Position numbers and translations under genes: made by a program. A stretch of 55,487 nt of DNA from an uncultured Bacteroidales bacterium (GTDB lineage Bacteria; Bacteroidota; Bacteroidia; Bacteroidales; UBA932). The stretch's first letter is position 1; every line of letters starts with the position of its first letter. Shown here one piece after another: positions 6,685 to 53,320 of this stretch. The notes under the pieces are model-generated. The model was not told the DNA's origin. It saw nothing but the letters and a program-made list of their open reading frames with translations, and made no database searches. Location: NCBI GenBank assembly GCA_900320795.1, contig ONTQ01000011.1, forward strand, positions 1 through 55,487. The letters run 5' to 3'.

Positions 6685-6713
6685 TAAGAAACGAACCACA
6701 ACACTAAAACAGC

Positions 6714-7892: not shown

Positions 7893-7893
7893 T

Positions 7894-9444
7894 ATGAAAA
7901 GAATTGCGCTTGCCTTTACAGCAGCACTCATGATGCTGGTATCCTGTAACAAAGGGGACGACGATCCCCGTCTTGTCATCATCACATTCGACGGCCTGCG
8001 CTGGCAGGAACTCTTCTCCGGGGCCGATGAATCCCTGGTGGGCGACACCCGTTTCGTGAGCAATCCCGAAGCCCTCAAGGCCGCTTACTGGCGGGATACG
8101 CCCGAGGAGCGCCGTGAAGCCCTCATGCCTTTTGTCTGGAGTTACGTTCCGCAGCACGGTTATCTCATCGGCAACCGTGACAAGGAGAGCATGATGACGG
8201 TGGCCAATACCATGAATTTTTCCTATCCCGGCTACAGCGAGATGTTCTGCGGCTGGCCCGATGACGAGCGCATCAACAGCAACGACCCCAATCCCAACCC
8301 CAACACCAGCGTGCTGGAAGTGGCCAACCGGGATCCCCGCTACAAGGGAAGCGTGATGATGTACTCCTCCTGGGAAAGCATCCGTTATGCCGTGAACAAT
8401 GAGCGTGGCGGTTTCCCCGGCTGCGTGGCCGATGAAAAACCTTATGTGAACACCGTCGGAGCCCGGGTTCTTTATGAAATCAACCAGTGGCAGAACGGAA
8501 AAACCGAAGAGTGCCCGGATTATTTCACCTATGGCTATGCCCTGGAAACTCTGACCAGTGCGCATCCCAAGGTGTTCTATGTGGGCTTCGGTGATCCCGA
8601 CGAGTTTGCCCACGCCGGAGAATATGACCGTTACCTCCAGTCCCTCAACGAGGGAGACACTTACATCCGCCGCATTGTGGAAACCTGCGAGGCCGATCCT
8701 TTCTACAAAGGGAAGACCACCTATATTCTCACCTGCGACCACGGCCGCGGCCTGGGTCCCAAGTTCACGGGCCACGGCGGGAACATCCGTCCTTCCCGTG
8801 AGACCTGGTTCATCGCCTTTGGAAAGGGCGTTCCCGTAAAGGGCGAGACCACTCACAACGGTCCTTTCTTCACCAAGCAGTTCGCCGCCACCATCGCGGA
8901 CATCCTTGGCATCGAATTCACCCCGGACAACGGCGAAAAGTGCGAACCGTTCAATCCCGACTTCTACAAGGAGCCTGAAGCACCGGTGGCATCGGCCAGT
9001 TTCGAAGCAGTGGAGGCCAAACCCAAGGGCCGGGGTCTCCGTTATACCTATTATGAAGGGGATATCATGAGCGTTCCCCAAATGCTGGCCTGTCCGGTCA
9101 AAGCCCAGGGTATCACTCCGGAATTCAGCACGGCCGTCAAAAAGACGGAAGACCATTTCGGCATCGTATTCGAAGGCCTCATGAAAATCGAGAAGGGAGG
9201 GCTATATCTTCTCTCATCGGCCACCGACGACGGCAGCATCTTCTTCCTGGACGGGCAGAAACTCTTTGACATCGACCGGGACGGCGGCGGCTACAAGGGC
9301 GCCTGGATCAACCTGGCCCCGGGTTATCACCGCATCCAGTTGCAGTATTGGGAGAATTATGGCGGAGAGAATATCGAAATCGGCCTGGACGGAGAAGGCA
9401 TAACCTATGAAAACCTTCCTGCGAGCATGCTCTTTTATGAGTAG
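7894..9444 (+). CDS. AlkP-superfamily phosphohydrolase lipoprotein with C-terminal PA14-like module
   Basis: Exported lipoprotein of 516 residues (MKRIALAFTAALMMLVSC). Residues about 24-370 form an alkaline-phosphatase-superfamily metallohydrolase: VIITFDGLRWQELFSG holds the first metal Asp, NFSYPGYSEMFCG the probable nucleophile position, GDPDEFAHAGEY and LTCDHGRG the other metal ligands, and FTGHGG the late His. There is no sulfatase C/S-x-P-x-R signature, so a phosphate or phosphodiester substrate is more likely than sulfate. Residues 379-516 form a PA14-like carbohydrate-binding module (DDGSIFFLDG, DIDRDGGGY) that aligns without a gap to the C terminus of the GH3 at 14743. The ATG at 7894 is chosen because it begins the lipoprotein signal; the frame is open upstream but overlaps the regulator gene. 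The ATG of the following GH92 gene lies inside its last codons. Confidence 0.82.
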   Translation: MKRIALAFTAALMMLVSCNKGDDDPRLVIITFDGLRWQELFSGADESLVGDTRFVSNPEALKAAYWRDTPEERREALMPFVWSYVPQHGYLIGNRDKESMMTVANTMNFSYPGYSEMFCGWPDDERINSNDPNPNPNTSVLEVANRDPRYKGSVMMYSSWESIRYAVNNERGGFPGCVADEKPYVNTVGARVLYEINQWQNGKTEECPDYFTYGYALETLTSAHPKVFYVGFGDPDEFAHAGEYDRYLQSLNEGDTYIRRIVETCEADPFYKGKTTYILTCDHGRGLGPKFTGHGGNIRPSRETWFIAFGKGVPVKGETTHNGPFFTKQFAATIADILGIEFTPDNGEKCEPFNPDFYKEPEAPVASASFEAVEAKPKGRGLRYTYYEGDIMSVPQMLACPVKAQGITPEFSTAVKKTEDHFGIVFEGLMKIEKGGLYLLSSATDDGSIFFLDGQKLFDIDRDGGGYKGAWINLAPGYHRIQLQYWENYGGENIEIGLDGEGITYENLPASMLFYE

Positions 9445-12271
9445 CAGGCCCTTCATATCCGCTCTGATGGCTCTGGCTCTTGTTTCCTGCGCAGGGGAAC
9501 AGGAGCCGGCCGGTCTTGTAAACGTATTCAACGGAACGGGTTTCGTAGGCAATACCTATCCCGGCGCCACGCTCCCGTACGGCATGGTCCAGCTGAGTCC
9601 GGACACCGACGTAAACTCGGCCTCCGGTTACCGGTATGCCGATGACAAAATCTTGGGATTCAGTCACAACCACCTCTCCGGAACCGGTTGTCCGGATCTC
9701 GGAGACTTTCTGGTGACCCCCGGCCTGGACAGCGTGGAACCGCTCCCGTTGAATCATCGGAACGAAACTGCCGGTCCCGGCTACTATAAAGTGACATTCC
9801 CCGAAAAGGGCATTACGGCCGAATTGACGGCGACGGAGCGTACCGGTGTGCACCGTTACCGTTTCAGCGGCCGCGGAAAGCGCCTGATCAGCATCAATAC
9901 GCTGTCCTGCGTGGGAGGCTGGTGCACTCCGATTGAAATGGAAATCCGCACGGAGGGGGAGGAGATTCTGGCCCACCGCCGCGTGAACGGCTGGGCCGAC
10001 GGGCGCGACTCCTATCTCTCGGCCGTCTTTTCGGCCCCTTTCGAGAAGGCAGAGGAAACATCCAAGTGTATTCTGACTTTCACTTTTGCCGATGACCTGA
10101 AGGACGTGACACTCATCGCCGGCCTCTCCGGCGTTTCCCTCGAAGGAGCCCGTAAAAACCGCCTGGCCGAGACGGAAGGGGAGTCGTTCGACAGCCTTCT
10201 GGCCAAGGCGAAAGCCACCTGGAACCGGGCCCTGGGCCGCATCCGGGTGAAGGGCGGCCCGGCCGATGTCTTCTACACCAACCTCTACCATACTTACATC
10301 ACCCCCAACCGGATCGATGACGTGGACGGCTGGTACAGGGATCAGTCGGCCCGGAACAGGCAGTTGGAGAAGGGACATCATTTTTACTCCACGCTTTCCA
10401 TCTGGGACACCTTCCGCAGCTGGAATCCGCTCCAAACCCTTATGGCCCCGGAGATGGTCGGCGACATGGTGTGCAGCATGCTGGACCAGTACCGCTGCCG
10501 GGGAGAACTGCCCATCTGGCCCCTTGCAAGCGACGAGACCGGCTGCATGATTGGCTACCACAGCGTTTCGGTCATCGCCGACGCATGGCTCCGCGGCATT
10601 CGCGGATTCGACGGCGAGAAGGCCCTGGAAGCCATGATTGTCTCTTCCAACAGGAACAACGTCAATGCTTCGGAGTTGTACAACACCTTCGGCTATATTC
10701 CGGCCGACATGAAGGTGGAATCTGTTTCCCAGGTATTGGAATTCTGCTACGACGACTGGTGCATCGCCCGCATGGCGGAGGCGCTGGGACATGCCGATAT
10801 CGCGGCGGAATATGACGCGCGGGCCCTGCGCTACCGCGCCCTCTTCGACCCCAACACCGGCTTTTTCCGCGGCAAGAAGGCCGACGGCAACTGGGTGGAA
10901 CCCCTGGAGCCGCTGCTCCGCAGCCGCGACTTCACGGAAGCCTCGCCCTGGCATTACCGCTTTTTCGTCCCCCACGACATGGCCGGCCTCCAGGCCCTGA
11001 TGGGCGGCCGCGAAGCCCTGTACGCCGCCCTGGATTCCCTTTTTACCTACAAGCCCGAGGGGCAGAAGTCGGTGGATGAGGGCATCGGCGGCATCATCGG
11101 CCAGTATGCCCACGGCAACGAGCCCAGCCACAACATGGCCTGGCTCTTTAACTATGTGGAGGCTCCTTCCCGTACGCAGGAGGTGGTCCGCGAAATCCTC
11201 ACGAAACTTTACACTACGGCCCCCGACGGAATCTGCGGAAACGAGGACTGCGGTCAGATGAGCGCCTGGTATGTCCTGGGCGCCCTGGGCCTGTACCCCG
11301 TGTGCCCCGGTACTGGCGAGTATCAGTTGGCAGCGCCGCTCTTCAAGGAAATCACGGTGGAACTCGGGAATGGCAACATCTTGATAATCAAGGCCGATCA
11401 TCCGGAGTATGCCTATGTGTCGGACATTACGCTGAACGGCGAACCGCTCCGGCGGAACTTCCTTAAGTATGAGGAAATCATCTCCGGCGGAACACTGGAA
11501 TACCGCTTGTCGGCCCGTCCGGACCACGGACGGGACAAGTTGCCGGCCGCCTATTCCCTCACGCATGAGGAGGTGGTGTGCCCGGTGGCCATCCTCGGAG
11601 ACATCATCCTGTTCCCGGAAGAGGCGGAGATTTGCCTGAAAACCCGCACGGAGGGCGCCGTCATCCACTATACCCTGGACGGAAGCGAACCGACGGCGGA
11701 CAGTCCCCTTTACACGGAGCCTTTCATCCTCCGGGAATCGGCCCCCATCCGGGCCCGTGCTTTCAAGGAGGGGATGGAGCCCTCCTTCGTGACTTCCCGC
11801 ACGGCGCACAAACTTCTTTTCCACGCCGCGGCTTCCCGCACGGGCATGAAGCCCGGCTGCCGTTACACCTACCATGCCGCGAATTTCGTTGCCCTGAGAC
11901 AGATTGAGGAAGACCCGGCCGAGGCCACCGGCACCATGCCGTTCCCTTCCATCGCAGGTGCCCCGGACCAGGACCATTTTGCATACTGCTTCTACGGATA
12001 CATCGACATTCCGGAGGACGGGATCTGGTCTTTCTATACCAAGAGCGATGACGGCAGTTCCCTCTATATCGACGGAACCATGGTGGTGGGGAACGACGGC
12101 TCGCACAGTGCGGTGGAGGCCGTTGGACGCATCCCGCTCCAGAAGGGGCTGCATGCCTATAAACTTCTCTATTTTGAGGATTATGAAGGGCAGTCCCTGG
12201 AATGGGGCTGGAAAGCCCCTTCGGCCCGGACGTACTCAACCATTCCCGCCAACCGGCTTTTTTACCGATAA
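9437..12271 (+). CDS. GH92 alpha-mannosidase with C-terminal chitobiase-like and PA14-like modules
   Basis: Lipoprotein of 944 residues (MSSRPFISALMALALVSC). GH92 enzymes are calcium-dependent inverting exo-alpha-mannosidases. The N-terminal beta-sandwich begins VNVFNGTGFVGNTYPGAT, with LGFSHNHLSGTG. The (alpha/alpha)6 barrel carries the acid motif AHGNEPSHNMAW (Glu 562) and the base motif CGNEDCGQMSAWY (Glu 603, Asp 604). After the catalytic part come a short chitobiase-C-like strand module (YTLDGSEPTADSPLY, about 730-790) and a PA14-like module (about 806-944, SDDGSSLYIDG, GNDGSHS). I chose the ATG at 9437, which overlaps the upstream gene by 8 bp and starts the signal peptide; a start at 9407 would add ten residues. 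A paralogue with the same architecture is at 50480. Mannosidase activity follows from the family; the exact linkage is unknown. Confidence 0.92.
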   Translation: MSSRPFISALMALALVSCAGEQEPAGLVNVFNGTGFVGNTYPGATLPYGMVQLSPDTDVNSASGYRYADDKILGFSHNHLSGTGCPDLGDFLVTPGLDSVEPLPLNHRNETAGPGYYKVTFPEKGITAELTATERTGVHRYRFSGRGKRLISINTLSCVGGWCTPIEMEIRTEGEEILAHRRVNGWADGRDSYLSAVFSAPFEKAEETSKCILTFTFADDLKDVTLIAGLSGVSLEGARKNRLAETEGESFDSLLAKAKATWNRALGRIRVKGGPADVFYTNLYHTYITPNRIDDVDGWYRDQSARNRQLEKGHHFYSTLSIWDTFRSWNPLQTLMAPEMVGDMVCSMLDQYRCRGELPIWPLASDETGCMIGYHSVSVIADAWLRGIRGFDGEKALEAMIVSSNRNNVNASELYNTFGYIPADMKVESVSQVLEFCYDDWCIARMAEALGHADIAAEYDARALRYRALFDPNTGFFRGKKADGNWVEPLEPLLRSRDFTEASPWHYRFFVPHDMAGLQALMGGREALYAALDSLFTYKPEGQKSVDEGIGGIIGQYAHGNEPSHNMAWLFNYVEAPSRTQEVVREILTKLYTTAPDGICGNEDCGQMSAWYVLGALGLYPVCPGTGEYQLAAPLFKEITVELGNGNILIIKADHPEYAYVSDITLNGEPLRRNFLKYEEIISGGTLEYRLSARPDHGRDKLPAAYSLTHEEVVCPVAILGDIILFPEEAEICLKTRTEGAVIHYTLDGSEPTADSPLYTEPFILRESAPIRARAFKEGMEPSFVTSRTAHKLLFHAAASRTGMKPGCRYTYHAANFVALRQIEEDPAEATGTMPFPSIAGAPDQDHFAYCFYGYIDIPEDGIWSFYTKSDDGSSLYIDGTMVVGNDGSHSAVEAVGRIPLQKGLHAYKLLYFEDYEGQSLEWGWKAPSARTYSTIPANRLFYR

Positions 12272-12274
12272 ACT

Positions 12275-14728
12275 ATGAAAAAACTCGTCCTGTTAACTGC
12301 TTTTGCCCTTTTTTCGCTGGCAGCCCTGGCACAAGGATTTGCCGACAGGGAAGCGTACTACCGGGAGCTCCTGCGGCAGATGACACCGGAGGAGAAAGCC
12401 TATCTGCTGATGGGAGACGGCGGGGTTCCCCGCCTGGGCGTTCCCGAGTTCGGTATGGATGACGGAGCCAGGGGGCCGCATACATGGGAAGGCTCCACCG
12501 GCTTTCCTTGCGGCCTGGGCCAGTCATCGGCCTGGAATCAGGAGTTGATGTTCCGGGCCGGGCAGGTGATGGGCGAAGAGGCGCGGGCCCTGGGCAAGAC
12601 GGTCCTGTTGGGCCCCGGCGTCAATATCCTCCGGGACCCGCTGGGCGGACGTTTTTTCGAATACTATACGGAAGACCCTTACCTGAACGGGGCCACGGCG
12701 GTCCCGATAGTGAAGGGCCTTCAGAGCATGGGCGTTGCCGCCTGCCTCAAGCATTATGCCTGCAACAACCGGGAGTCCAACCGGAATTTTTACTATTCAG
12801 TCGTGGATGAACGGTCCTTGCATGAAATCTATCTTCCGGTTTACAAGGCAGCGGTTCAGAAAGGAAAGGTATGGACCATCATGACTTCGGCCAATGGCAT
12901 TAACTTCGAGTATGTGAGCGACAGCCGGAAAATGCTCACGGACATTCTCAAGGACCAGTGGGGCTTCGACGGCTTTGTCATGACCGACTGGCTGCAGACC
13001 CGCACCACCGAAAAGGCCATTTCGGCCGGCCTGGACAAATCCATGCCGGGCTGGGAAGAATGCCTTTACGGAAAAGCGCTGCTGGAGGCGTTGAAAAAAG
13101 GCACGGTCCGGGAAAGTTTCATGGACGACAAGGTGCTCCGCATCCTACGGATTTGCGACCGGGTGGGGCTGCTGGAAGGCTCTCCCGCCAAGGTTCCCAC
13201 GGACTGCAGAATCCTTACGCCGGAACATGTGGCGGTGGCGAGGGAAATGGCGCAGGAAAGCATGGTGCTCCTGAAAAATGAAGGAGGGCTTCTGCCGCTG
13301 GACCCCGGAAAGGTGCGCCGCATCCTGGTGACGGGCCCCAACGCCACCCTGCGAACCTGCGAAATCGCCATGGGCGGCAGTTCCTGGATGTATTCTCCGG
13401 GCGAAGTGACCATCCTGGACGGCCTTCGGAAGACTTACCGGAAAGTGGACTGGTTTGACTGGAAATCTTTGGGCGGCTTCCGGGAAATCGAGGCTCCCGT
13501 GCATGCCCGCTACTATAAAAAAGGCCTGGAGGAGCCCGCTGTGGAACGGACGGAGGATGGCATCAACTTCATGTGGGAAATGCGGTCTCCGGATGCTTCC
13601 ATCCCGGTGCAGGAATGGACCGGGGCGCGCTTCGATTTCACCTTTACGGCACCGGCCGACGGAAAATACACGTTCCGCTTCACTTCCGGCGGCGGCCACG
13701 TGAGCGCCTACAACGGTTCGTGGGAAGGGGCTCCGGTCGTTTTTATCCGGGGAGACCAGAAGATTGCCGGGACCCCCATGGGCACGGTGGATCTTAAAAA
13801 GGGACAGGACTATCATCTGTGCATCGTTTTTGAAAAGACGGAAGGGGACGCCTCCCTCCATGTGGAATATTCTACGCCGGAATCGGAAGGGGCTCCCGCC
13901 CGTCTGGCGGCCCTGGAAAAGGCGGCTCGGAAGGCCGATGCCGTCATTTTCGTGGGGGGCTTGGACATGAACCTGGATACCGAAGGCCGGGACCGGATTA
14001 CGATGCTGTTCCCTCAATTGCAGCAGGAAGCAATCCTGCGGCTGGTGAAGGCGAATCCCCGGACGGTGGTCACCCTCATGAACGGTTCTCCGGTCGAATT
14101 GGGCGGCTGGCTCCCGGAAGCCCCGGCCGTATTGGAGGCCTGGTATGGAGGGATTGAGGCCGGAACGGCCGTGGCCGATATTATCAGCGGGAAAGTGAAC
14201 CCCAGCGGCCATCTGACCTTCACATGGCCCAGGCATTACGAGGATACGCCCATCCATCGGCTGGGCTGGGAGAACCAGGACCTGATTTATTTCACGGACA
14301 GCCTGAATGTGGGCTACCGATATTACGACAGCAAGGGCGTGGAACCGGAATTTCCCTTCGGCCACGGCTTGAGTTATACCTCTTTTGCGTATGAAGGCTT
14401 GCGGCTGGAGAAGGAGGGGGATGCCGCCTTCCGGGGAACGCTGACGGTGCGCAATACCGGCTCCCGGTCCGGAAAGGAAGTGGTGCAGGTCTATATCCGC
14501 CCGCTGGAGCCGTCCGTAGAGCGTCCCGTGCATGAATTGAAGGCATTCTGCAAAGTGGAGGTTCCAGCAGGCGGTTCTGCGGAGGCCTCCTTCACCCTGG
14601 AACCGGACGCCTTCTCCTTCTATGATGTCACGCTTCCCGGCTGGCGGGTGGATCCGGGCCGGTATGTGGTTGAGATTGGGCGCGATTCCCGCCATATCGA
14701 ATTGACAGAAACCGTAGTTGTAAAATGA
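12275..14728 (+). CDS. GH3 beta-glycosidase with internal PA14-like insertion
   Basis: Secreted protein of 817 residues with a signal peptide ending ALAQ. GH3 retaining exo-hydrolases cleave terminal beta-glucose, beta-xylose and similar sugars in the periplasm. The first GH3 domain shows GPGVNILRDPLGGRFFEYY, substrate-binding CLKHYACNN (Lys 159, His 160) and the nucleophile Asp 238 in GFDGFVMTDW. The second domain begins near 320 (AQESMVLLKNEGGLLPL) and is interrupted at about 408-533 by a degenerate PA14-like insertion (FTFTAPADGKYTFRFTS; KGQDYHLCIVFEK). NLDTEGRDR (Glu 570) is the likely acid/base region. A fibronectin-III-like tail ends the protein after FPFGHGLSYTSF. It starts 3 bp after the GH92 gene and its stop overlaps the first possible start of the next GH3. 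Confidence 0.92.
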   Translation: MKKLVLLTAFALFSLAALAQGFADREAYYRELLRQMTPEEKAYLLMGDGGVPRLGVPEFGMDDGARGPHTWEGSTGFPCGLGQSSAWNQELMFRAGQVMGEEARALGKTVLLGPGVNILRDPLGGRFFEYYTEDPYLNGATAVPIVKGLQSMGVAACLKHYACNNRESNRNFYYSVVDERSLHEIYLPVYKAAVQKGKVWTIMTSANGINFEYVSDSRKMLTDILKDQWGFDGFVMTDWLQTRTTEKAISAGLDKSMPGWEECLYGKALLEALKKGTVRESFMDDKVLRILRICDRVGLLEGSPAKVPTDCRILTPEHVAVAREMAQESMVLLKNEGGLLPLDPGKVRRILVTGPNATLRTCEIAMGGSSWMYSPGEVTILDGLRKTYRKVDWFDWKSLGGFREIEAPVHARYYKKGLEEPAVERTEDGINFMWEMRSPDASIPVQEWTGARFDFTFTAPADGKYTFRFTSGGGHVSAYNGSWEGAPVVFIRGDQKIAGTPMGTVDLKKGQDYHLCIVFEKTEGDASLHVEYSTPESEGAPARLAALEKAARKADAVIFVGGLDMNLDTEGRDRITMLFPQLQQEAILRLVKANPRTVVTLMNGSPVELGGWLPEAPAVLEAWYGGIEAGTAVADIISGKVNPSGHLTFTWPRHYEDTPIHRLGWENQDLIYFTDSLNVGYRYYDSKGVEPEFPFGHGLSYTSFAYEGLRLEKEGDAAFRGTLTVRNTGSRSGKEVVQVYIRPLEPSVERPVHELKAFCKVEVPAGGSAEASFTLEPDAFSFYDVTLPGWRVDPGRYVVEIGRDSRHIELTETVVVK

Positions 14729-14742
14729 TAAACCCTTTGTTC

Positions 14743-19936: not shown

Positions 19937-19947
19937 AACGAAATAAG

Positions 19948-22152: not shown

Positions 22153-22171
22153 ACCATTAATATACACTGAT

Positions 22172-23068: not shown

Positions 23069-23074
23069 GAAGCC

Positions 23075-24928: not shown

Positions 24929-24933
24929 AAGAT

Positions 24934-29310: not shown

Positions 29311-29422
29311 GCGTCGAATGTAAGTAACTGATTTTTATTCGTTTATGAGAATTCGCTTAGTCCGGATCGCCCAAGCGATTTTGCGTAAAACGCTGGTGGC
29401 CAGCTGTTTGTGTTCGACGGCC
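29311..29422 (+). repeat. Leader/signal-peptide cassette, copy A (partner at 37061-37172)
   Basis: This 112-bp block covers 34 bp of intergenic DNA, the ATG and the first 25 following codons of the GH106 gene. It aligns without gaps to 37061-37172 in front of the GH51 gene, 81 of 112 bases identical by hand count. Identical cores include ATTTTGCG and CAGCTG. The similarity ends inside the signal peptides (ILRKTLVASCLCSTA against ILRKLLIVSCLCSTA). Confidence 0.75.
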
Positions 29423-33202: not shown

Positions 33203-33224
33203 CCGTTTGCCTTATTGCCCGGTG
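33192..33224 (+). repeat. Perfect direct repeat TTGCCCGGTG
   Basis: The 10-mer TTGCCCGGTG occurs at 33192-33201, overlapping the stop of the GH106 gene, and again at 33215-33224. The copies are 23 bp apart and lie upstream of the predicted promoter at 33237. This is a possible regulator site; function is not shown. Confidence 0.4.
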
Positions 33225-33236
33225 CTGTGTTACCAT

Positions 33237-33268
33237 ATTGCAAAAAAGGCAAAAAAAAGGTATTTTTG
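33237..33268 (+). promoter_or_regulatory. Predicted Bacteroidota-type promoter inside the enzyme cluster
   Basis: ATTG (33237-33240, or TTGC one base later) is followed after 20 bp by TATTTTTG (33261-33268), matching TAnnTTTG. The 86-bp gap before the next start is the largest since the regulator, and the site lies 20 bp before that ATG. It probably starts a second enzyme transcript. Confidence 0.65.
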
Positions 33269-33288
33269 TAAGGATAAGATTTGGCCTT

Positions 33289-34452: not shown

Positions 34453-34465
34453 AACCCTTATCAGA

Positions 34466-35491: not shown

Positions 35492-35502
35492 CCCGTCTGC
35501 CC

Positions 35503-37059: not shown

Positions 37060-37060
37060 A

Positions 37061-37172
37061 GCGTGGAATATAAATAGTTGATAATTAATTATTTATGAAA
37101 AGTAGCTTAGCCTGGTTTACCTATACGATTTTGCGCAAATTGCTCATTGTCAGCTGCTTGTGCTCTACGGCC
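37061..37172 (+). repeat. Leader/signal-peptide cassette, copy B (partner at 29311-29422)
   Basis: This 112-bp block begins 1 bp after the GH43 stop and includes the 34-bp spacer, the ATG and the first 25 following codons of the GH51 gene. It aligns without gaps to 29311-29422 (81/112 bases). The intergenic part contains an AT-rich TTGATAATTAATTATTTATG, whereas the surrounding DNA is GC-rich. Confidence 0.75.
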
Positions 37173-39053: not shown

Positions 39054-39060
39054 AAAGCCT

Positions 39061-40941: not shown

Positions 40942-40945
40942 TATC

Positions 40946-43549: not shown

Positions 43550-43618
43550 CCCGCCTGTCGCCGTTCCGGTTCCGCAGCCATCGTTCCGGATGCCATTTCA
43601 TTGTCTATAAGCTGCAGT

Positions 43619-45304: not shown

Positions 45305-45307
45305 GAT

Positions 45308-46690
45308 ATGAAGATAAAATGCTTGCTCGCCACCTTGCTGGTGGTCTCTTGCGCCTCCGGAGAACAGGAGGTAAAAGTAGTGCTTGCCGAAGGCAGGGAA
45401 GCCGTCCCCGCAGGAGAATTCGGCTACAATCCCATTTGCCCGATGGGCGTTTACATGGCCGATCCCAGTGCCAAGGTGCTGGACGGAAAGATGTATGTGG
45501 CCTGCTCGCTGGATTTGACGACGGACATCTGGTGCACGGGTTACCATCACATGCTCTCCACGGAGGATGCCCTCCACTGGACGCTGCACACGAATGTCTT
45601 TGCCTCGAAAGGCCCTTATGACGGCGTCCCTTACAGCGATGCCGACCTGTATGCTCCCGACATTGCCGAGAAAGACGGCCGCTACTATCTGTACTACGAC
45701 CTCTCGGAATGGACCGAGGGCGTAGCCGTTTCCGATTCTCCCACCGGCCCGTTCACCGACGGTGTGCAGATTGGGGACATCCGGGGTATCGACCCCTGCG
45801 TCTTCATCGACGACGACGGGCAGGCCTATTACTTCTGGGACCAGTTCAGCGCCAGGGGCGCCAAGCTGAATCCCGACATGACCACGCTGGATATGTCCAC
45901 CCTGCATGAAGGCATCGTCACGGAGAAGGAACATGGCTTCCACGAGGGCAGCTTTGTCTTCAAGCGCGACGGCTGGTACTACTATGTCTATGCCGATATC
46001 AGCCGCCAGAACATGCCCACCTGCATCGGCTATTCCATGTCCCGCGATGTCTTCGGCCCTTACGAGTACAAGGGCGTGATCGTGGACAGCAACGGCTGCG
46101 ACCCGGACGTGTGGAACAATCACGGTTCGGTAGTGGAACTGAACGGGCAGTGGTATGTGCTGTACCACCGTTCCACCCATCACAGCAGCAAACTGCGCAA
46201 GGCTTGCATCGAGCCTATCACCTTCAATGCCGACGGGACCATCAACGAAGTGGAAATGACCTCCCAGGGTGCCGGGAAGCCCATTCCGGCAACCAGCACC
46301 ATCGATGCCGCCCGTGCCTGCCTGTTCAATGGCGGCCCGCATGTGCGCCTGATGGAAGGCCGTAGCGACCGCGAAATCATTTCCGGACTGGTGGATGGCA
46401 GCAAGGCGGCCTGGAAATATATCGACTTCCCCGCCGGACTCCATAAACTCACCATGCGGGTACGGGCGCTCAATGGCGGCCACATTACCGTGACGCAGGA
46501 CCAGTCCTTCTCCGGATGGATTGCCGGCCTGGATGTCCCCAAGGGGAAAGGGGAGTGGATGACCCTGGAATGCGAAGTGGAGGATGTGGAGGAAGGTCCC
46601 CATGCCCTCTGGTTCATGTTCTCCGGCGATTACGGCGGTCGGAAGCATCCCATTGACCTCTTTGAAATTGACTGGTTTACATTCGAATGA
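45308..46690 (+). CDS. GH43 glycosidase with C-terminal CBM6-like module
   Basis: Lipoprotein of 460 residues (MKIKCLLATLLVVSC). The GH43 propeller has Asp in VYMADPSAKVLDGKMYVACS (base), Asp in GIDPCVFIDDDGQAYYFWD and Glu in GFHEGSFVFKRDGWYYYVYA (acid), with DADLYAPDIAEKDGRYYLYY and NHGSVVELNGQWYVLYHR. Residues about 335-460 form a CBM6-like sandwich (WKYIDFPAGLHKLTMRVRA; WFMFSGDYGGRKHPIDLFEI). It differs from the GH43 at 35503 in both propeller details and accessory domain, so the two probably act on different linkages; arabinofuranosidase, xylosidase or galactosidase activity are all known in the family. Followed after 21 bp by the oxidoreductase gene. Confidence 0.9.
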   Translation: MKIKCLLATLLVVSCASGEQEVKVVLAEGREAVPAGEFGYNPICPMGVYMADPSAKVLDGKMYVACSLDLTTDIWCTGYHHMLSTEDALHWTLHTNVFASKGPYDGVPYSDADLYAPDIAEKDGRYYLYYDLSEWTEGVAVSDSPTGPFTDGVQIGDIRGIDPCVFIDDDGQAYYFWDQFSARGAKLNPDMTTLDMSTLHEGIVTEKEHGFHEGSFVFKRDGWYYYVYADISRQNMPTCIGYSMSRDVFGPYEYKGVIVDSNGCDPDVWNNHGSVVELNGQWYVLYHRSTHHSSKLRKACIEPITFNADGTINEVEMTSQGAGKPIPATSTIDAARACLFNGGPHVRLMEGRSDREIISGLVDGSKAAWKYIDFPAGLHKLTMRVRALNGGHITVTQDQSFSGWIAGLDVPKGKGEWMTLECEVEDVEEGPHALWFMFSGDYGGRKHPIDLFEIDWFTFE

Positions 46691-46711
46691 ACACTTAATA
46701 CACTATAACCT

Positions 46712-48016
46712 ATGGCTGATTCAAGAAGATCTTTCCTAAAGAAGGCGGGTGCGGGGATTGTCGCTGCGACCATCCTGCCCAGAAACGTATTCGGCGCCAT
46801 GGGCGGCAACAAAAAGTATGTCGCCCCCAGCGACCAGCTTACGCGGGGTATCATCGGCGTGGGGGGTATCGGCATGTCCGGCCTTCACTTTGCCAGTGAT
46901 GACAAATGCCGCCTCGTAGCGGTCTGCGATGTGGACCAGGGCCACCTGAACCGGGCCCTTGAGGCCGGCAAGGAGCGTTTTGGCACCCACCTCGCCGCCT
47001 ATCATGACTTTCGTGACCTTATCCACGACCCCAACGTGGACATCGTCCACATTGCCACCCCTTCCCACTGGCATGGCATCATGGCCGTGGAGGCAGCCCG
47101 GGCCGGCAAGGACATTTTCTGTGAGAAACCCATGACCCGCACCATCGGGGAAGGACAGAAAGTGGTGGAGGCGGTGGCCAGGTACGGGCGTATTTTCCGC
47201 CTGGACACCTGGTTCCGCTTCAAGGACACGTTCTATGGCCTTGGAACGACGGTGGAACCCCTCAAGAAGTTGGTTTCCAGTGGCTTGCTGGGCTGGCCGC
47301 TGACCGTTCGCATCTCGGGGGCCACGGGTTTCGCCTGGAAGTTCTACTGGACGGGACGGGAAGACCTGACGCCCCAGCCCGTTCCGGCCGAACTGGACTA
47401 TGACCTCTGGCTGGGCCCCGCCCCGTACAAACCCTACCATCCGCACCGGGTGCACGGAACCTTCCGTGGCTACTGGGATTATGAGTCCGGCGGCCTCGGG
47501 GACATGGGACAGCACTATATCGACCCCGTTCAGTATATCCTCGGGAAGGACGACACCTTCCCCGTAAAGGTGGAAGTGGACGCTCCCCAGCAGCATCCCG
47601 ACGCTGTTGGAACCTGGCGCAGCATCACCTATACTTATGATGATGGATGCAAGATTATCCTGGAAGGCGAGGGCTACGAAAGCCCCGGCAAGGTTCCGTA
47701 CATCGAAGGTCCGCTGGGCAAAGTTTACAAGGGCTTCGAATGCACCATCCCCCATGTGTGGGATGTCATCAACTCGCTGCCGGACCCGGCTCCCCGCCAC
47801 ACCGATTTCCTGGAGTGCGTGAAAAACCGTCAGCACTTCGCCCTGGATGAGATTATCGGCCACCACAGCGCGACGGTCGTGAACATGGGCGCCTGCGCCC
47901 TGCGCCTCGGCCGCACCCTGCACTTCGACCCGCTCACCCAGCGTTTTATCGGCGACGATGCCGCCAACCATCTCATCAATCAACCGATGCGTGCCCCTTG
48001 GGCTTCCATGATTTAG
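46712..48016 (+). CDS. Tat-exported Gfo/Idh/MocA oxidoreductase
   Basis: Protein of 434 residues with a clear twin-arginine signal (SRRSFLKKAG, then VAATILPRNVFGA), so it is exported folded with bound NAD(P). The Rossmann fold shows GIIGVGGIGMSG (about 47-57), LVAVCDVD, IVHIATPSHWHG and the family Glu-Lys-Pro motif at 138-140 (IFCEKPMTRTI). The C-terminal half has GGLGDMGQHYIDPVQYI and ends with the NMGACALRLGRTL region. Periplasmic members with tightly bound cofactor include GH109-type glycosidases and sugar C3 oxidoreductases. The next gene encodes a DUF1080 protein, a domain known as 3-keto-glycoside hydrolase, so a role in oxidising a glycoside at C3 or in a redox-assisted cleavage cycle is the best guess. 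Confidence 0.88.
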   Translation: MADSRRSFLKKAGAGIVAATILPRNVFGAMGGNKKYVAPSDQLTRGIIGVGGIGMSGLHFASDDKCRLVAVCDVDQGHLNRALEAGKERFGTHLAAYHDFRDLIHDPNVDIVHIATPSHWHGIMAVEAARAGKDIFCEKPMTRTIGEGQKVVEAVARYGRIFRLDTWFRFKDTFYGLGTTVEPLKKLVSSGLLGWPLTVRISGATGFAWKFYWTGREDLTPQPVPAELDYDLWLGPAPYKPYHPHRVHGTFRGYWDYESGGLGDMGQHYIDPVQYILGKDDTFPVKVEVDAPQQHPDAVGTWRSITYTYDDGCKIILEGEGYESPGKVPYIEGPLGKVYKGFECTIPHVWDVINSLPDPAPRHTDFLECVKNRQHFALDEIIGHHSATVVNMGACALRLGRTLHFDPLTQRFIGDDAANHLINQPMRAPWASMI

Positions 48017-48022
48017 TGCCTT

Positions 48023-49183
48023 ATGAAAAAGATATTTGCTCTGTTTACCGCGCTCCTGCTGGTGGCAGGAAGCCTCTTTGGACAAGTAGTCAGCGATTCC
48101 GCCAAACGGGATGCCCTGAAGCAGGAAATCTCCCGCTGCGATGATTCCGTGGCGCGTTCTTTCCTGCTCCAGCAGTTGTATCCGCTGGCGCAGGAATCCG
48201 ATATTCCGCTTTACCTTTCCTATGTGGGCGACCCTCTTTGCGCCCCCATGTCCGTCGCGGCCCTGGTGGCCCTTCCCGGCGGGGACAAGGCGCTCATGGA
48301 ACTGGTGCGCACGGAAGGGGCCGACAAGACGCTCCTCTGCGGCGCCGTGGCCGACCGGGGGCTCCGCGAGGCCGAACCGTATCTTCTCCAGTGGGCCGGG
48401 AGTGCCCGCGGGGAAGAGAAGAAGGCCATCGACCGGACCCTTGGCATCATCGGCGGAAAAGCCTCTGCCAAGTATCTGAAGAGCCAGTCTTTGCCGGACT
48501 ATCTGGTCCTTCTGGACAATCTGAGCGACAAAGAGGCCGTGAAGGCCGCCAAGGGCCTTCTGAAAGATGCCAATTCCGGTATCCGCTGTGCTGCGGTAAA
48601 GACCGTCATCGAGCGGTCGGCCCGGAATCCGAAGCTGGTGGTGGACGCCCTCAAGACAGGCGACCGTCCTTACCGCAACGCCGCCCTCTCCGCTACGGAA
48701 AAATATGATGGGGAGACCCTGGCAAAGGCGCTGGAAAAAGCCTATGCCACCCTTTCCGACGAAGCCCGGACGGATGTCCTCAACTGGCTGGGTGCAAAAA
48801 AAATAAAGAGCGCCCTTCCCCTTGTTACCGGCAGCATTTCGAACCCGGGCGAACTGGGAGAAACGGCCATCCGCACCACCGGCATCCTCGGTGGTGAGCA
48901 AGCAGCCGAAGCGCTTGTGGCCGCCCTTTCCGGTGACAAGGCCGATGTCGCCTTTGCCGCCCTGGCCACCTTTGAAGGAAACTTGACCGATAGGTGGAGA
49001 CAATGGCTGCTTCCGGAAATTTGTTTGCGGCAGAGGCCTTGGACGGTATGGCTACTGTGGCGCAGGCGGAGGGGATCGCTGCCCTTCTGGATGCTTCTGC
49101 CGGGGACTTCACGGCACCACTCCAGAAAGCCCTTGTCTATGCTCTTCATACGGAAACGCCTGAGGCTCAGGCAGAAAGACTGA
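48023..49183 (+). CDS. HEAT-repeat protein, N-terminal fragment of a frameshifted HEAT-DUF1080 gene
   Basis: Begins with a signal peptide (FALFTALLLVAGSLFGQ), followed by helical HEAT-like repeats from about residue 35 (PMSVAALVALPGGDKALMEL; GIRCAAVKTVIERSARNPKL; GETAIRTTGILGGEQAAEAL; VAFAALATFEGNLTDR). After about residue 323 the frame turns into unrelated Arg/Trp-rich sequence (WRQWLLPEICLRQRPW) and stops at 49183, while genuine HEAT sequence continues in another frame from 48994. One extra base in the GG at 48993-48994 would read DRVETMAASGN and join both parts. So this is the first 40 per cent of a gene spanning 48023-50403. Whether the break is real or a sequence error cannot be decided here. 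Confidence 0.8.
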   Translation: MKKIFALFTALLLVAGSLFGQVVSDSAKRDALKQEISRCDDSVARSFLLQQLYPLAQESDIPLYLSYVGDPLCAPMSVAALVALPGGDKALMELVRTEGADKTLLCGAVADRGLREAEPYLLQWAGSARGEEKKAIDRTLGIIGGKASAKYLKSQSLPDYLVLLDNLSDKEAVKAAKGLLKDANSGIRCAAVKTVIERSARNPKLVVDALKTGDRPYRNAALSATEKYDGETLAKALEKAYATLSDEARTDVLNWLGAKKIKSALPLVTGSISNPGELGETAIRTTGILGGEQAAEALVAALSGDKADVAFAALATFEGNLTDRWRQWLLPEICLRQRPWTVWLLWRRRRGSLPFWMLLPGTSRHHSRKPLSMLFIRKRLRLRQKD

Positions 49184-50403
49184 AGGGATATCTTCCCGCT
49201 GCCGTTCACAAGGACAAATTCTATCCGGTCCTCGCCGCCGGCAATTCCGATGCCGCCGCGAATGTACTCCGCGAGGCGGCACAGAAAGACGCATCGGCCC
49301 GCGATGCTCTCTTTGGCATGCAGATTCCTTCCGTGACGGAGGATGTTCTCGCTGCGGCCCGTGAAGGAGGAAAGGATGCCGACAAGTACCTGGACCGCTA
49401 CGTAAACCTTCTTTCCCGGTTCGGGGAGAACGACGACGTGAAGCGGCTGGGCCTTGCCGAAGTGCTTTCGCTCGCATCCGACCCGGCCGTGAAGGTGTCG
49501 GCCCTTGGCAAACTGGGGGACATGCCGCTCATGAAATGTTTCCTTCTGGCTGGTAAGTATCTGGACGACAGCGCGGAAAGTGTGCGTTTTGCCGCGGCGG
49601 ACGCTGTTCGCAAGATTGCTTCCCAGTGCAAGGAAGAAATCAATTATGACGACTTCAAGGGCAGCCTGGAGAAGGCCGCCGCCCTCTACCGTACCCGCGG
49701 GCTGGCCGATGACGGCTATGCCGTGGACGAGATTGGCAAGATGCTTTCAGAGGCGAAACCCGCCCCGCGGAGCGAACTCACGGCCGAAGAGAAGGCGCGG
49801 GGTTTCGAAATGCTCTTTGACGGAAGCGACCTTTCCAAGTGGCATGGTGACAAGGAAGGCTATACCGTGGTGAACGGAGCCATCCTGGTATCGGCCCTTT
49901 ATGGAAGTACGGGCAACCTCTACACCAACAGGCAGTACCGCAATTTCGTGTATCGTTTCGAGTTCTGTTTCCTGGAGGAAGGCGTGAACAACGGCGTGGG
50001 CATCCGTACCCCCGAGAACGTGGATGCCGCCTACCACGGCATGTGCGAACTGCAGATCCTGGACCACGACGCCCCGCAGTACGCCGGCTGGCTCAAGGAT
50101 TACCAGGTGCACGGTTCCATCTATGGCATCGTCCCTGCCAAACGCCTCAAGCACAAACCTTTGGGTGAATGGAGCACCGAGGAAATCATCGTGGAGGGAG
50201 ACCATATCAAAGTGACGGTGAACGGCGAAGTGATTACCGATGCCAATGTGCGTAAGGTAACCCAAGGCGGCCGCAAGGCTACCATCGACGGCAGGGAGCA
50301 CCCGGGACTGTTCAACCGGAAGGGGTATATTTCCTTCTGCGGCCACGGTGCGGGCCTCAAGATCAGAAACGTGCGGATTCTGGACCTGGGAGAGAAGAAA
50401 TAG
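48994..50403 (+). CDS. HEAT repeats plus DUF1080 (3-keto-glycoside hydrolase-type) domain, C-terminal part of frameshifted gene
   Basis: Continues the protein begun at 48023 in a different frame; GTG 48994 is only the first in-frame start-like codon, so independent translation is doubtful. Residues about 1-255 are more HEAT-like repeats (LFAAEALDGMATVAQ; YLDRYVNLLSRFGEND; SVRFAAADAVRKIASQ). Residues about 268-466 are a DUF1080 jelly-roll: RGFEMLFDGSDLSKWHGD, YTVVNGAILVSALYG, LYTNRQYRNFVYRFEFCF, NNGVGIRTP, YHGMCELQILDHDAPQYAG, WSTEEIIVEGDHIKVTVNG and GYISFCGHGAGLKIRNVRI. DUF1080 proteins cleave 3-keto-disaccharides or glycosides, often by elimination. With the oxidoreductase upstream it would form an oxidation-then-cleavage pair. 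HEAT repeats may give a docking platform. The intact protein would have about 794 residues. Confidence 0.82.
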   Translation: METMAASGNLFAAEALDGMATVAQAEGIAALLDASAGDFTAPLQKALVYALHTETPEAQAERLKGYLPAAVHKDKFYPVLAAGNSDAAANVLREAAQKDASARDALFGMQIPSVTEDVLAAAREGGKDADKYLDRYVNLLSRFGENDDVKRLGLAEVLSLASDPAVKVSALGKLGDMPLMKCFLLAGKYLDDSAESVRFAAADAVRKIASQCKEEINYDDFKGSLEKAAALYRTRGLADDGYAVDEIGKMLSEAKPAPRSELTAEEKARGFEMLFDGSDLSKWHGDKEGYTVVNGAILVSALYGSTGNLYTNRQYRNFVYRFEFCFLEEGVNNGVGIRTPENVDAAYHGMCELQILDHDAPQYAGWLKDYQVHGSIYGIVPAKRLKHKPLGEWSTEEIIVEGDHIKVTVNGEVITDANVRKVTQGGRKATIDGREHPGLFNRKGYISFCGHGAGLKIRNVRILDLGEKK

Positions 50404-50435
50404 TCCCCGGTTTGTGTCTTCGGAACGGGCAGCGC

Positions 50436-50478
50436 TTTCCATATTGGAAATACAGCCGAGATTCTGTACATTTGTACA
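50436..50478 (+). promoter_or_regulatory. Two palindromes overlapping the promoter of the second GH92 gene
   Basis: TTTCC-ATATT-GGAAA (50436-50450) covers the predicted -33 element. TGTACA-TT-TGTACA (50465-50478) covers the -7 element and ends 1 bp before the ATG. Dyads placed on both core elements are typical of repressor control; no cognate regulator can be named. Confidence 0.45.
50443..50474 (+). promoter_or_regulatory. Predicted Bacteroidota-type promoter, possibly leaderless
   Basis: ATTG (50443-50446), a 20-bp spacer and TACATTTG (50467-50474) match the -33/-7 consensus. The GH92 start codon begins 6 bp after the -7 box, so the transcript would start at or next to the ATG. A later in-frame ATG at 50492 would give a short leader instead. 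Confidence 0.7.
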
Positions 50479-50479
50479 T

Positions 50480-53320
50480 ATGGAAAAAAGAATGCTATTT
50501 GCGGCCCTGCTGCTGCCCGTCCTGTTTTTTGCGGCTTCCTGCAGTACTCCGGAGGAAGGCGTCGCCCTTCATGACGTGAATCCTTTTGTGGGAAGTGGCG
50601 GTATCGGCCATACCTATCCCGGAGCCACGGCCCCTTTCGGACTGGTCCAACTGAGTCCGGACACCCGGAACGGAGGCTGGATTGCGGCGTCCGGTTATCA
50701 CGATGAAGACAGTACCCTCATGGGTTTTTCTCATACCCATTTGAGCGGAACCGGCGGCGTCGATTTCGGAGATTTCCTCTTCACGCCCCTGCTGGGGGAG
50801 GTTCTCCTGACGGAAGAGGGCTTCCAGGCCCCCCGGTTGCCTTTTTCAAAAGCCGACGAAAAAGCGTTCCCCGGCTATTACAGCGTTGTGCTTGAGGGTG
50901 TCACGGCTGAACTGACGGCGCTTCCCCATACGGGATGTCATTCCTATGGCTTTTACGGGGAAGGGGAGCGGCATCTGCTCATTGACCTCCGTCACAATAT
51001 CGGCGAAACCCGTCCCAGTGACATTACCTGCACCGCGGTGGCCGACACCCTCTTGGAGGGAGGCCGTCACGTGGCCGGATGGGCACCAGCCCGGGAAATC
51101 TGTTTCAGCGCCCGTTTCTCCGTGCCTTTTACCAGTTGCATCCCCGACGGGAAAGACCGTTACCTCCTTACTTTCCCGGCTGATACCAAGGGAGTTACCG
51201 TTACCGTGGGCCTCTCTCAGGCCAGTGTGGAAGCGGCCCGGAAAAACCGCCTTGCAGAAGCGCCCCGCTGTGATTTCAGTGACGTGATGGAGCGTTCGCG
51301 GAGGCTGTGGGAGGAGGCGTTCGGAAAGATTATCATCGAGGGTGGAACGTCCGCTCAGCGGACCAATTTCCATACGGCGCTTTACCACACTCTCGTGGCC
51401 CCGAATCTCATCAGCGATGCAGGGGAGAGACCCTTCTATTCCACGCTTTCCCTCTGGGATACCTACCGTACGTGGAATCCGTTGCAGACCCTGATGAATC
51501 CGCAGCTGGTAAGCGACATGGCCCGGAGCCTCGTCCTCACGTTCCAGCGGGACGGAAAACTGCCCCTCTGGCCCCTTGCCGGCATGGATACGGACTGCAT
51601 GATAGGCTATCATGCCGTATCGGTCCTGGCCGATGCGTGGCTTCGCGGCATCCGCGGATTTGACGGAGAGGCGGCCCTGGAGGCCATGGTGGCTTCCTCC
51701 AACCTGGATCCGGCATCGGCCTGGTATAACGAGTACGGCTACATTCCCTGCGATTTTGCCTCCGAGTCCGTCTCCCGTACGCTGGAGTTCTGCTACGATG
51801 ACTGGTGCATCGCCCGTATGGCCGAAGCGCTTGGGCATGAGGATATTGCAGCGGAGTATGATGCCAGGGCACTCCGGTACCGGAACCTGCTGGACCCCTC
51901 CACTGGCTTTTTCCGGGGCCGGGATTCCGAAGGCAACTGGCGCAGCCCTTTCAATCCCGACGGCCGTTCCCGGGATTACACAGAGGCCACGGCCTGGCAA
52001 TACCGTCACTATGTGCCGCAGGATATGGGCGGCTATATCGGCCTGATGGGCGGACGGGAGAAGGTGAAGACTACCTTGGATTCGCTGTTTACGTATGAGT
52101 ATCTGGATCCGTCCATGGCCGATGACGGCAATGTGACGGGGATGATCGGGCAGTATGCCCATGGCAATGAGCCCAGTCACGGATCGGCCTGGCTGTATGC
52201 CTGTATCGGAGACCCTTCCTCTACGCAGCGGTGGGTGAGGCATATCCTGGACCGGATGTATGCTCCCACTCCGGAGGGCATCTGCGGCAACGAGGATTGC
52301 GGCCAGATGAGCGCCTGGTATGTGATGAGCGCCATGGGCCTGTATCCGCTCTGCCCCGGCAGCGGCGAGTTTGTGCTGGGAGCGCCCCTTTTCAGGAAAA
52401 TTACTTTGCATCTTCCCGGAGGAAAAACCTTTGTCATTACGGCCGACCATCCCGGATACGCTTATGTGAAGGATGTCCGTCTGAATGGGAAAAAGGTTGA
52501 GGCACAGTTTATTACCTATTCGGATATTGTAAAGGGCGGAGAACTTTCCTTCACCCTCTCCAAGAAGCCTTTCCATGGACGGGATGCGCTTCCGCCCCCG
52601 TATTCCATGACAGGGGAGAACCTGGTTTCCACGCCGGTTCTCCTCGGGAATCCGCGCTTTTTCAGGGGAACCTTCCAGGCCTGTCTTGGCAGCCGGACCC
52701 CCGGGGCGGAAATCCGTTACACGCTGGACGGCAGCGAGCCCACGGAGAAATCGGCCCTGTATGCGGGCGCTTTTCCCGTCCGGGAGGAGGTAATCTTGAA
52801 AGCCCGGGCGTTCAAGGAGGGTATGATGCCGAGCCCGCTTCTGCAGTGCCGGGTGTTCCCGCTGGTCATCCATCCGGCGGTTCCGCTGACCGCCAAGCTC
52901 GCTCCGGGCTGCCGCTACACCTATCACAGGGGCGGTTTCAAGATGACGGCCGATGTAGTGGCGTCTCCGGCGGTTTTGCGCGGCGTGATGCCGGAGCCGT
53001 CCATCCTGGGCGCACCGGACGAGGACCATTTTGGCTACATTTTCACGGGGTATCTGGATGTCCCGGAAGAGGGCCTTTGGGAATTCGCCATCACCAGCGA
53101 CGACGGCTGCGTGCTGGAAATCGACGGCCATCTGGCCGTGAATGCCGATGGTTCCCATTCCAATTCCACGGCGACGGGCTTCATCGGCCTTGCAAAAGGG
53201 CTGCATGCCTTTACACTCCGTTATCTGGAAGACTATGAAGGGCAAAATTTGGAGTGGAGGTGGCGAAGTCCTTCTTCAGAGGGCTTTGCCCTCGTTCCCG
53301 CATCCGCTATTTCCCATTAA
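50480..53320 (+). CDS. GH92 alpha-mannosidase (second copy) with chitobiase-like and PA14-like modules
   Basis: Lipoprotein of 946 residues (MEKRMLFAALLLPVLFFAASC). GH92 features are VNPFVGSGGIGHTYPGATAP, LMGFSHTHLSGTG, IRGFDGEAALEAM, acid motif AHGNEPSHGSAW and base motif CGNEDCGQMSAWY. The C terminus repeats the architecture of the protein at 9437: a chitobiase-C-like segment (YTLDGSEPTEKSALY) and a PA14-like module (FGYIFTGYLDVPEEG, SDDGCVLEIDG, NADGSHSNS). The two are clearly paralogues but have diverged throughout, so they probably differ in linkage preference. The frame is open back to 50348, but the signal peptide and promoter place the start at 50480. It follows its own palindrome-rich promoter and is separated by 96 bp from the next gene. 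Confidence 0.93.
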   Translation: MEKRMLFAALLLPVLFFAASCSTPEEGVALHDVNPFVGSGGIGHTYPGATAPFGLVQLSPDTRNGGWIAASGYHDEDSTLMGFSHTHLSGTGGVDFGDFLFTPLLGEVLLTEEGFQAPRLPFSKADEKAFPGYYSVVLEGVTAELTALPHTGCHSYGFYGEGERHLLIDLRHNIGETRPSDITCTAVADTLLEGGRHVAGWAPAREICFSARFSVPFTSCIPDGKDRYLLTFPADTKGVTVTVGLSQASVEAARKNRLAEAPRCDFSDVMERSRRLWEEAFGKIIIEGGTSAQRTNFHTALYHTLVAPNLISDAGERPFYSTLSLWDTYRTWNPLQTLMNPQLVSDMARSLVLTFQRDGKLPLWPLAGMDTDCMIGYHAVSVLADAWLRGIRGFDGEAALEAMVASSNLDPASAWYNEYGYIPCDFASESVSRTLEFCYDDWCIARMAEALGHEDIAAEYDARALRYRNLLDPSTGFFRGRDSEGNWRSPFNPDGRSRDYTEATAWQYRHYVPQDMGGYIGLMGGREKVKTTLDSLFTYEYLDPSMADDGNVTGMIGQYAHGNEPSHGSAWLYACIGDPSSTQRWVRHILDRMYAPTPEGICGNEDCGQMSAWYVMSAMGLYPLCPGSGEFVLGAPLFRKITLHLPGGKTFVITADHPGYAYVKDVRLNGKKVEAQFITYSDIVKGGELSFTLSKKPFHGRDALPPPYSMTGENLVSTPVLLGNPRFFRGTFQACLGSRTPGAEIRYTLDGSEPTEKSALYAGAFPVREEVILKARAFKEGMMPSPLLQCRVFPLVIHPAVPLTAKLAPGCRYTYHRGGFKMTADVVASPAVLRGVMPEPSILGAPDEDHFGYIFTGYLDVPEEGLWEFAITSDDGCVLEIDGHLAVNADGSHSNSTATGFIGLAKGLHAFTLRYLEDYEGQNLEWRWRSPSSEGFALVPASAISH

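Follow-up and report, generated by a model that had tools for sequence, protein, structure and literature searches.

PA14 domains in carbohydrate-active enzymes

PA14 is a common accessory domain, and it is an established notion that enzymes acting in the same pathway can have binding modules in common. In the domain MpPA14, two neighbouring aspartates joined by a cis peptide (DcisD) hold a Ca2+ ion that binds vicinal hydroxyls, and the PA14 sugar site comprises DcisD plus residues of loops L9 and L11 (PMC8092209). Within GH3, the class with an inserted PA14 (ABB_ABS_PA14_FLD) accounts for 2,673 of 27,499 sequences in PMC5104943, and the PA14 inserts of RmBgl3B and DesR make no observed contact with substrate (PMC6987092). 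The GH92 family includes a mannose-phosphate-mannose mannosidase, and the solved enzymes 6f8z and 7zgm are treated as alpha-1,3-mannosidases (both from PMC9522356). Full-text literature searches, in which some sources were available in part, did not find module sharing described for a polysaccharide-utilisation locus such as the one presented below, which may still be published; they gave one paper in which GH92 and PA14 occur side by side, one that mentions DUF4838 and none with a sulfatase and a PA14 domain.

A polysaccharide-utilisation locus and its gene content

The stretch of DNA analysed, hereafter the window, is one whole contig (C127, 55,487 bases, G+C content 58.4%) of a 2.8 Mb genome in 266 contigs, and the nearest records found were Bacteroidales and Bacteroidia MAGs, some of them titled with ruminant-stomach samples. 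Pfam scans identified in the window a polysaccharide-utilisation locus, in which SusC/SusD and a LacI-AraC-type regulator are accompanied by a long enzyme series. The gene cluster (1..54331, plus strand) harbors SusC, SusD, the regulator, AlkP, GH92, GH3, GH28-esterase, DUF4838, phosphodiesterase-like, GH127 and GH78-GH3 genes, together with GH106, WbsX, metallophosphatase, GH43, GH2, apiosidase-like (GH140) and GH43-CBM6 genes, as well as GFO_IDH_MocA, 3-keto-disaccharide hydrolase, GH92 and metallo-beta-lactamase fold genes. The GH78, GH106, GH127, GH43 and apiosidase-like enzymes suggest a plant polysaccharide as the substrate. A GFO_IDH_MocA oxidoreductase, a HEAT-repeat protein and a 3-keto-disaccharide hydrolase are clustered at 46712-50403, a trio that suggests a 3-keto glycoside route within the locus.

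It is reasonably probable, in our assessment, that the locus carries PA14 carbohydrate-binding modules of mixed origins on several of its enzymes. All five module-bearing genes begin with an in-frame ATG, at 7894, 9437, 14743, 19948 and 50480, and continue with a sequence that resembles a signal peptide (5/5); the AlkP and GH92a reading frames overlap. The AlkP protein is a predicted enzyme, matching the AlkP superfamily model PF01676 at 25.9 bits against a cut-off of 24.3, and had no match among PDB sequences up to E 0.1. A lipoprotein signal was also considered as a marker of the module-bearing enzymes and was discarded, as a simple lipobox occurs in four of the five and likewise in 13 of 22 other proteins, with some of the calls looking spurious.

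Five related C-terminal modules

The initial annotation had described five proteins of the window as ending in a PA14 module, and PF07691 exceeds its gathering score (24 bits) in all five of them. The modules, each of about 138 residues and all on the plus strand, lie at 9028..9441 in the AlkP-superfamily protein (gene 7894-9444; 26.2 bits; loop DRDGGGY), at 11849..12268 in GH92a (gene 9437-12271; 35.0 bits; motif NDGSHS), at 17002..17415 in GH3b (gene 14743-17418; 37.1 bits; motif DRDGGGY; placed by trees in the AlkP-module lineage), at 21748..22149 in the DUF4838 protein (gene 19948-22152; 42.2 bits; motif DGSHS) and at 52901..53317 in GH92b (gene 50480-53320; 40.5 bits; motif DGSHS; included in the trees), those of GH92a and GH92b following CHB_HEX_C_1/Fn3_assoc. 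A profile of the five modules gave eight matches in the whole genome, five of them inside the window. All ten pairwise alignments scored far higher than their shuffled controls (1000 per pair; z 23.8 to 71.7), bearing out the claimed likeness, with identities of 28–54%: 54% for AlkP and GH3b, 54% for GH92a and GH92b, 38% for DUF4838 and GH92b, and 28–35% for the other seven pairs. AlphaFold2 models of the AlkP and GH92a modules (two of the five) display the PA14 beta-sandwich fold with mean pLDDT values of 96.8 and 95.2, respectively, and the best Foldseek matches of both were sugar-bound MpPA14 and RsgI-type PA14 domains, with TM-scores by query length of 0.74–0.83 and E-values down to 1.5e-07.

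The (S/T)DDG..DG motif is present in all five modules, and the DHFG..F.G motif, which had been claimed for all of them, in four, GH92a reading DHFA instead. The two proposed subtypes hold as motifs, DGGGY marking AlkP and GH3b, and DGSHS marking DUF4838 and the two GH92s; as clades they were rejected, since DGSHS is common to GH92, metallophosphatase and older AlkP modules in the trees. On these comparisons DGSHS is the ancestral state and DGGGY the derived one, arisen in an AlkP paralogue.

A further, degenerate PA14 had been noted inside the GH3 protein encoded at 12275-14728 (GH3a). This insert in the C domain (residues 402-541; 13478..13897, plus strand) is marginal, reaching 22.3 bits with PF07691 in one scan (cut-off 24) and 24.7 in another. 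Its sub-threshold PA14 match, residues 414-474, lies inside Glyco_hydro_3_C (330-701); the PA14 of GH3b (796-851) lies past the Fn3-like domain (648-718) and is not inserted in the C-terminal sandwich domain. The GH3a insert was not accepted as the same module as the other five, being weakly alike at best (z 1.5–5.5 only).

Differential evolution of the GH92 and DUF4838 modules

The module tree retained 191 of 198 rows after those covering fewer than 106 model positions were dropped, and a subset of 89 rows contained 32 AlkP, 9 GH3b, 7 DUF4838, 14 of the 19 metallophosphatase-labelled (MPP), 2 of the 20 'other', 25 of the 102 GH92 and neither of the two PHP modules. The MPP label was at first set by hand and is supported by Pfam scans for 16 of the 19; despite the label, Pfam finds no metallophosphatase domain in L161 (which is cut), L233 or L116_3, and in the 191-row tree the partner of L116_3 is a PHP protein. 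For the order-level searches, the catalytic parts of AlkP, DUF4838 and GH3b were compared with 295 order-level genomes and at most 30 loci were read per search; catalytic matches were considered from 40 bits upward, and the module was sought in every frame of at least 60 codons in the loci read, a few frames being truncated at a contig end or interrupted by stops.

The GH92 modules form one clade in both trees, with 96 of 102 rows in the 191-module tree (SH-aLRT 98) and 25 of 25 in the 89-row tree (99/98). The modules of GH92a and GH92b fall within this clade, which spans many Bacteroidota genera, and those of AlkP, GH3b and DUF4838 stand outside it in both trees. Catalytic and module distances are correlated, with Mantel r 0.84 for 89 GH92 rows and 0.72 for 32 AlkP rows (p 0.001 each). 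A profile search of the genome-contig database, in a scan that used one peptide pattern from the five modules and thus favoured close relatives, kept 79 loci, of which 66 contain a GH92 carrier; 27 of these 66 are genus-named (Bacteroides, Parabacteroides, Phocaeicola, Alistipes, Azobacteroides, Prevotella and Gelidibacter). The GH92 modules are thus an established part of GH92 across Bacteroidota that descends with the enzyme. The initial annotation had proposed that the module spread by recombination within the locus; for GH92a and GH92b the family clade (SH-aLRT 98) and the correlation (r 0.84) contradict this, each module being closest to those of its own enzyme family. The window's genome encodes ten GH92 enzymes, three with and seven without the module; as only three of the ten carry it, GH92 does not need the module. 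Two GH92-PA14 enzymes were also observed in very long frames, one with an apiosidase-like (GH140) part (G003:C56 49163, 1499 aa) and one with an additional part (G255:C8 93885, 1717 aa).

The seven DUF4838 modules likewise form a clade of their own (97 in the 191-row tree, 100/99 in the 89-row tree), the position of which shifts between the trees, with AlkP/metallophosphatase modules at 89 in the former and with GH92 modules at 96/72 in the latter. Alternative placements were not rejected by AU tests (p 0.17–0.25), and the grouping of DUF4838 with GH92 modules as one subtype is left open. By blastn breakpoints, a segment with the DUF4838-PA14 gene (19928..22169, plus strand) is missing from G177:C3 (97% identity across 19.9 kb upstream), and nearly the same segment (19936-22156, plus strand) from the goat record JAFSMS010000017.1 (L084), 88% identical over 6.9 kb. 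The whole gene is therefore present or absent, so that the module goes with it, and with the modules in their own clade and no sign of copying, recombination inside the locus is not borne out for DUF4838. The difference is more simply read as an insertion in the lineage of the window, losses being the other reading. Outside the genus, 29 DUF4838 relatives were read and the module was present in no frame of their loci; many of these relatives end in another domain, discoidin-like by eye. In L232 (G508:C32), L233 (G508:C167, on the opposite strand) and G558:C471, DUF4838 genes adjoin genes with this kind of PA14, an adjacency that is a possible route to the fusion seen in the window's genus.

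Probable transfer of a module from the AlkP lineage to GH3b

Two tandem AlkP genes occur in some congeners, and in some of these pairs the DGSHS paralogue branches first among the AlkP modules, the other paralogue reading DGGG(Y/F). The AlkP catalytic tree splits like the modules, with three DGSHS paralogues and the G185 copy in one clade (100/99). Among the 12 rows of this tree that are marked as module-less, five end at the edge of the locus and are thus only cut (L355, L362, L364, L366 and L369). Of the seven that truly lack the module, two belong to G014, two to order-level relatives, and one each to G005, G061 and G185. The two G014 enzymes form a separate long branch. The G185 copy (G185:C55 11022) occupies the DGSHS position among the AlkP paralogues, has a length of only 367 aa and is a probable case of module loss. 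Among other modules, the nearest to those of AlkP are from calcineurin-like metallophosphatases (13 rows at 96, joining at 81 in the 191-row tree; the label is supported by Pfam for 12 of the 13), a join that is not resolved in the midpoint-rooted 89-row tree. Taken together, the module probably joined AlkP inside the genus in its DGSHS form, the loop changed in one paralogue and some losses came later.

The GH3b modules form one clade (100/100 in the 89-row tree; 99/94 in a separate tree once the GH3b copy of G185 is included), and AlkP and GH3b modules together a 38-row clade (100/100 in the 89-row tree). GH3b is nested among AlkP modules in a 31-row clade of 21 AlkP and 10 GH3b rows (100/99), with a similar clade at 91/98 in the 89-row tree, and a tree with all AlkP modules apart from GH3b was rejected in two AU tests (p 0.00018 and 0.00184). 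Keeping the 29 DGGG-type AlkP modules together without GH3b was not rejected (p 0.22 in both tests), so that the position within AlkP overall is firm and the donor branch open. In the GH3b catalytic tree (36 rows), the six PA14 carriers form one clade (100) and 30 rows, 24 of them congeneric, lack the module, a distribution by which the GH3b module is seen as gained once, inside the genus.

An AlkP-PA14 gene lies on the same contig in 10 of the 11 GH3b-PA14 carriers seen (the window, G003, G019, G139, G177, G240, G247, G255, G317 and RGIG3283), the exception being G185, with its AlkPs on another contig. The two modules are 5–8 kb apart in seven of these ten carriers and about 10–37 kb apart in G019, G139 and G317. 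Trees and co-localisation thus give good support to one in-locus transfer between unrelated neighbours, by which GH3b would have received its module from the AlkP module lineage. In the evolutionary course suggested by the trees, AlkP would first have borne a DGSHS module, the loop would have changed to DRDGGG(Y/F) in a tandem AlkP paralogue, and GH3b would then have acquired such a module inside the locus. The comparison with PA14 domains of other loci (191 modules and the 89-row subset) accordingly leaves sharing within the locus to the AlkP and GH3b pair, one of the five modules having moved, with GH92a, GH92b and DUF4838 set apart in clades of their own families; apart from this transfer, AlkP, GH3b, DUF4838 and the main GH92 modules keep to their enzyme class in the trees built.

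That AlkP and GH3b each acquired a DGGGY module independently, from some third carrier outside the sample, is doubtful. Room for such a source is left by the donor-branch tests (AU p 0.22) and by the sampling, which covered 300 congeners of a larger group; on the other side, the DGGG consensus is found only in AlkP and GH3b among the five module classes compared, and the AlkP-PA14 gene accompanies GH3b-PA14 on the contig in all carriers except one. The direct transfer also agrees with the order-level searches, in which the module was found in no frame of the loci of 17 AlkP relatives (three of them close) and 28 GH3b relatives outside the genus; in this sample there is no sign of a wider architecture, and the AlkP, GH3b and DUF4838 fusions are specific to the window's genus. 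Elsewhere in the window's genome (L001, G000:C74), a metallophosphatase with an N-terminal PA14 lies just downstream of a module-less GH3 that is 51% identical to GH3b. The case is a useful one, as a single transfer links two unrelated enzymes encoded in the same locus and relatives that predate and postdate the event are available, and matched pairs are at hand for testing the role of the module, namely GH3b with and without it and AlkP with a DGSHS module, a DGGG module or none.

Putative ligand site and specificity

The DD of (S/T)DDG aligns with the RADDG motif of MhPA14 (6m8m), and the adjacent aspartate pair, DcisD-equivalent by this alignment, is present in all five modules of the window. 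Across the 102 GH92 modules the conservation is 94% for D67, 97% for D68 and 100% for G69, and the DD column is 100% conserved in 29 DGGG-type AlkP, 10 GH3b and 7 DUF4838 modules. By alignment and residue counting, we infer that DGSHS/DGGGY falls in loop L9 and (F/W)(E/D)(D/N)(Y/F/C)xG in loop L11. By analogy with known PA14 lectins, the DD would hold a Ca2+ ion that grips a sugar by its vicinal hydroxyls, selectivity would be set by two loops, DGSHS/DGGGY and (F/W)(E/D)(D/N)(Y/F/C)xG, and the module would keep its own enzyme near the substrate.

It is unlikely that the modules are mainly structural, serving stability, oligomer contacts or as an active-site lid, and not carbohydrate-binding. 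The PA14 inserts of RmBgl3B and DesR, for which PMC6987092 gives no substrate contact, would fit such a role, and the correlated module and catalytic distances (r 0.84 and 0.72) are expected too of co-adapted parts. The almost invariant DcisD-equivalent pair argues against it, as do the sugar-bound lectin domains among the best fold matches; furthermore, having moved between AlkP and a GH3, the module is not fitted to any single catalytic surface, and it is absent from seven of the ten GH92s of the genome and from every one of the 24 congeneric GH3b rows read that do not belong to the clade of carriers.

With carbohydrate binding as the preferred reading, the specificity of the modules comes into question, as a single one had been proposed for all five. 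The DGGGY and DGSHS subtypes differ in both aligned ligand-loop regions, which makes one specificity for all five less likely, and judged from these loops two specificities are likelier and a single one unlikely. AlkP and GH3b may share one ligand, differing from that of GH92 and DUF4838, and a shared specificity is plausible for GH92a with GH92b and for AlkP with GH3b. Between AlkP and GH3b, L9 is kept (DRDGGG) and L11 differs (ENYGG versus DNFAE), so that these two as well might differ in ligand. One ligand would probably serve AlkP and GH3b, and another the GH92s, perhaps with DUF4838.

That one module of one specificity was spread by recombination in this locus to all five enzymes is quite improbable. 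Five related modules do reside in one locus and the step from AlkP to GH3b is of this kind; for the origin of the modules, however, the reading is contradicted by the GH92 modules lying in a GH92 clade across many Bacteroidota genera, and it is opposed by the whole-gene difference at DUF4838 and by the divergence of both aligned ligand loops between the subtypes.

Related modules on phosphoesterases and other enzymes

Outside the genus, related modules were observed on calcineurin-like phosphatases (such as L091, L116, L148 and L218-L224) and on a PHP-domain protein (L224), and a second PHP-PA14 protein, L031, was observed inside it. In one frame of L220 (8625-12008, G503:C2), Alk_phosphatase, a calcineurin-like metallophosphatase and a C-terminal PA14 are fused, adjoining a GH92-PA14 gene. 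The wider module set also includes GH20, GH29, an arabinofuranosidase-type enzyme, and BNR-repeat and PQQ proteins, most of the modules following CHB_HEX_C_1/Fn3_assoc. In the surroundings (up to 20 kb each) of ten strong GH92-PA14 loci outside the genus, a phosphoesterase-PA14 was observed in six (G357, G431, G503, G536, G601 and G670), which is not an unbiased rate as seven of the ten loci were noticed via two strong matches per genome; the other four (G419, G491, G570 and G587) are without one. No second kind of carrier was seen within the flanks of at most 4 kb of the 27 genus-named GH92 loci, which include G357, its phosphatase lying farther out than this view.

A phosphorylated mannoside is conceivable as a substrate, by analogy, because GH92 includes the mannose-phosphate-mannose mannosidase. 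A bolder proposal, which we regard as improbable, is that this PA14 branch would be a targeting tag for a phosphate-bearing mannose glycan, carried by GH92s and by three unrelated phosphoesterase folds (AlkP-like, calcineurin-like and PHP) that would replace one another in such loci, the change from DGSHS to DGGGY marking a second glycan state (e.g., after mannose removal) for AlkP and GH3b. The solved GH92s nearest to GH92a and GH92b are the alpha-1,3-mannosidases 6f8z and 7zgm, and the remaining locus hints at a plant polysaccharide, both of which speak against a phosphorylated mannoside; the repeated pairing of GH92 with differently folded phosphoesterase-PA14 enzymes points to a phosphorylated glycan worth seeking.

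Comparison with known systems

The modules have the same fold as MpPA14 (6x7x and others) and MhPA14 (6m8m), the DDG aligning with RADDG of the latter; they are shorter (about 138 versus 177–188 residues), their loops differ, and they are attached to enzymes with putative binding, whereas the lectins belong to adhesins. Like KmBglI, DesR and RmBgl3B, GH3a has its insert within the C domain, whereas the C-terminal PA14 of GH3b, past the FnIII-like domain, is absent from the five GH3 architectures listed in PMC5104943. The sulfatase 9s8a, an AlkP-superfamily enzyme, has a C-terminal PA14 that can be aligned with these modules, reading TDE with inserted residues where those of the window have (S/T)DDG. 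In other Bacteroidales, the metallophosphatase-PA14 and PHP-PA14 proteins (L091, L105, L116, L148 and L218-L224) carry related C-terminal modules on catalytic folds unrelated to AlkP. Finally, GH92a and GH92b share the module clade and the architecture of GH92 with CHB_HEX_C_1/Fn3_assoc and a C-terminal PA14 (CHB_HEX_C_1 checked by Pfam among GH92s for GH92a, GH92b and L004 only), and nothing essential differs from the known GH92-PA14 architecture, the window having two such genes in one locus.
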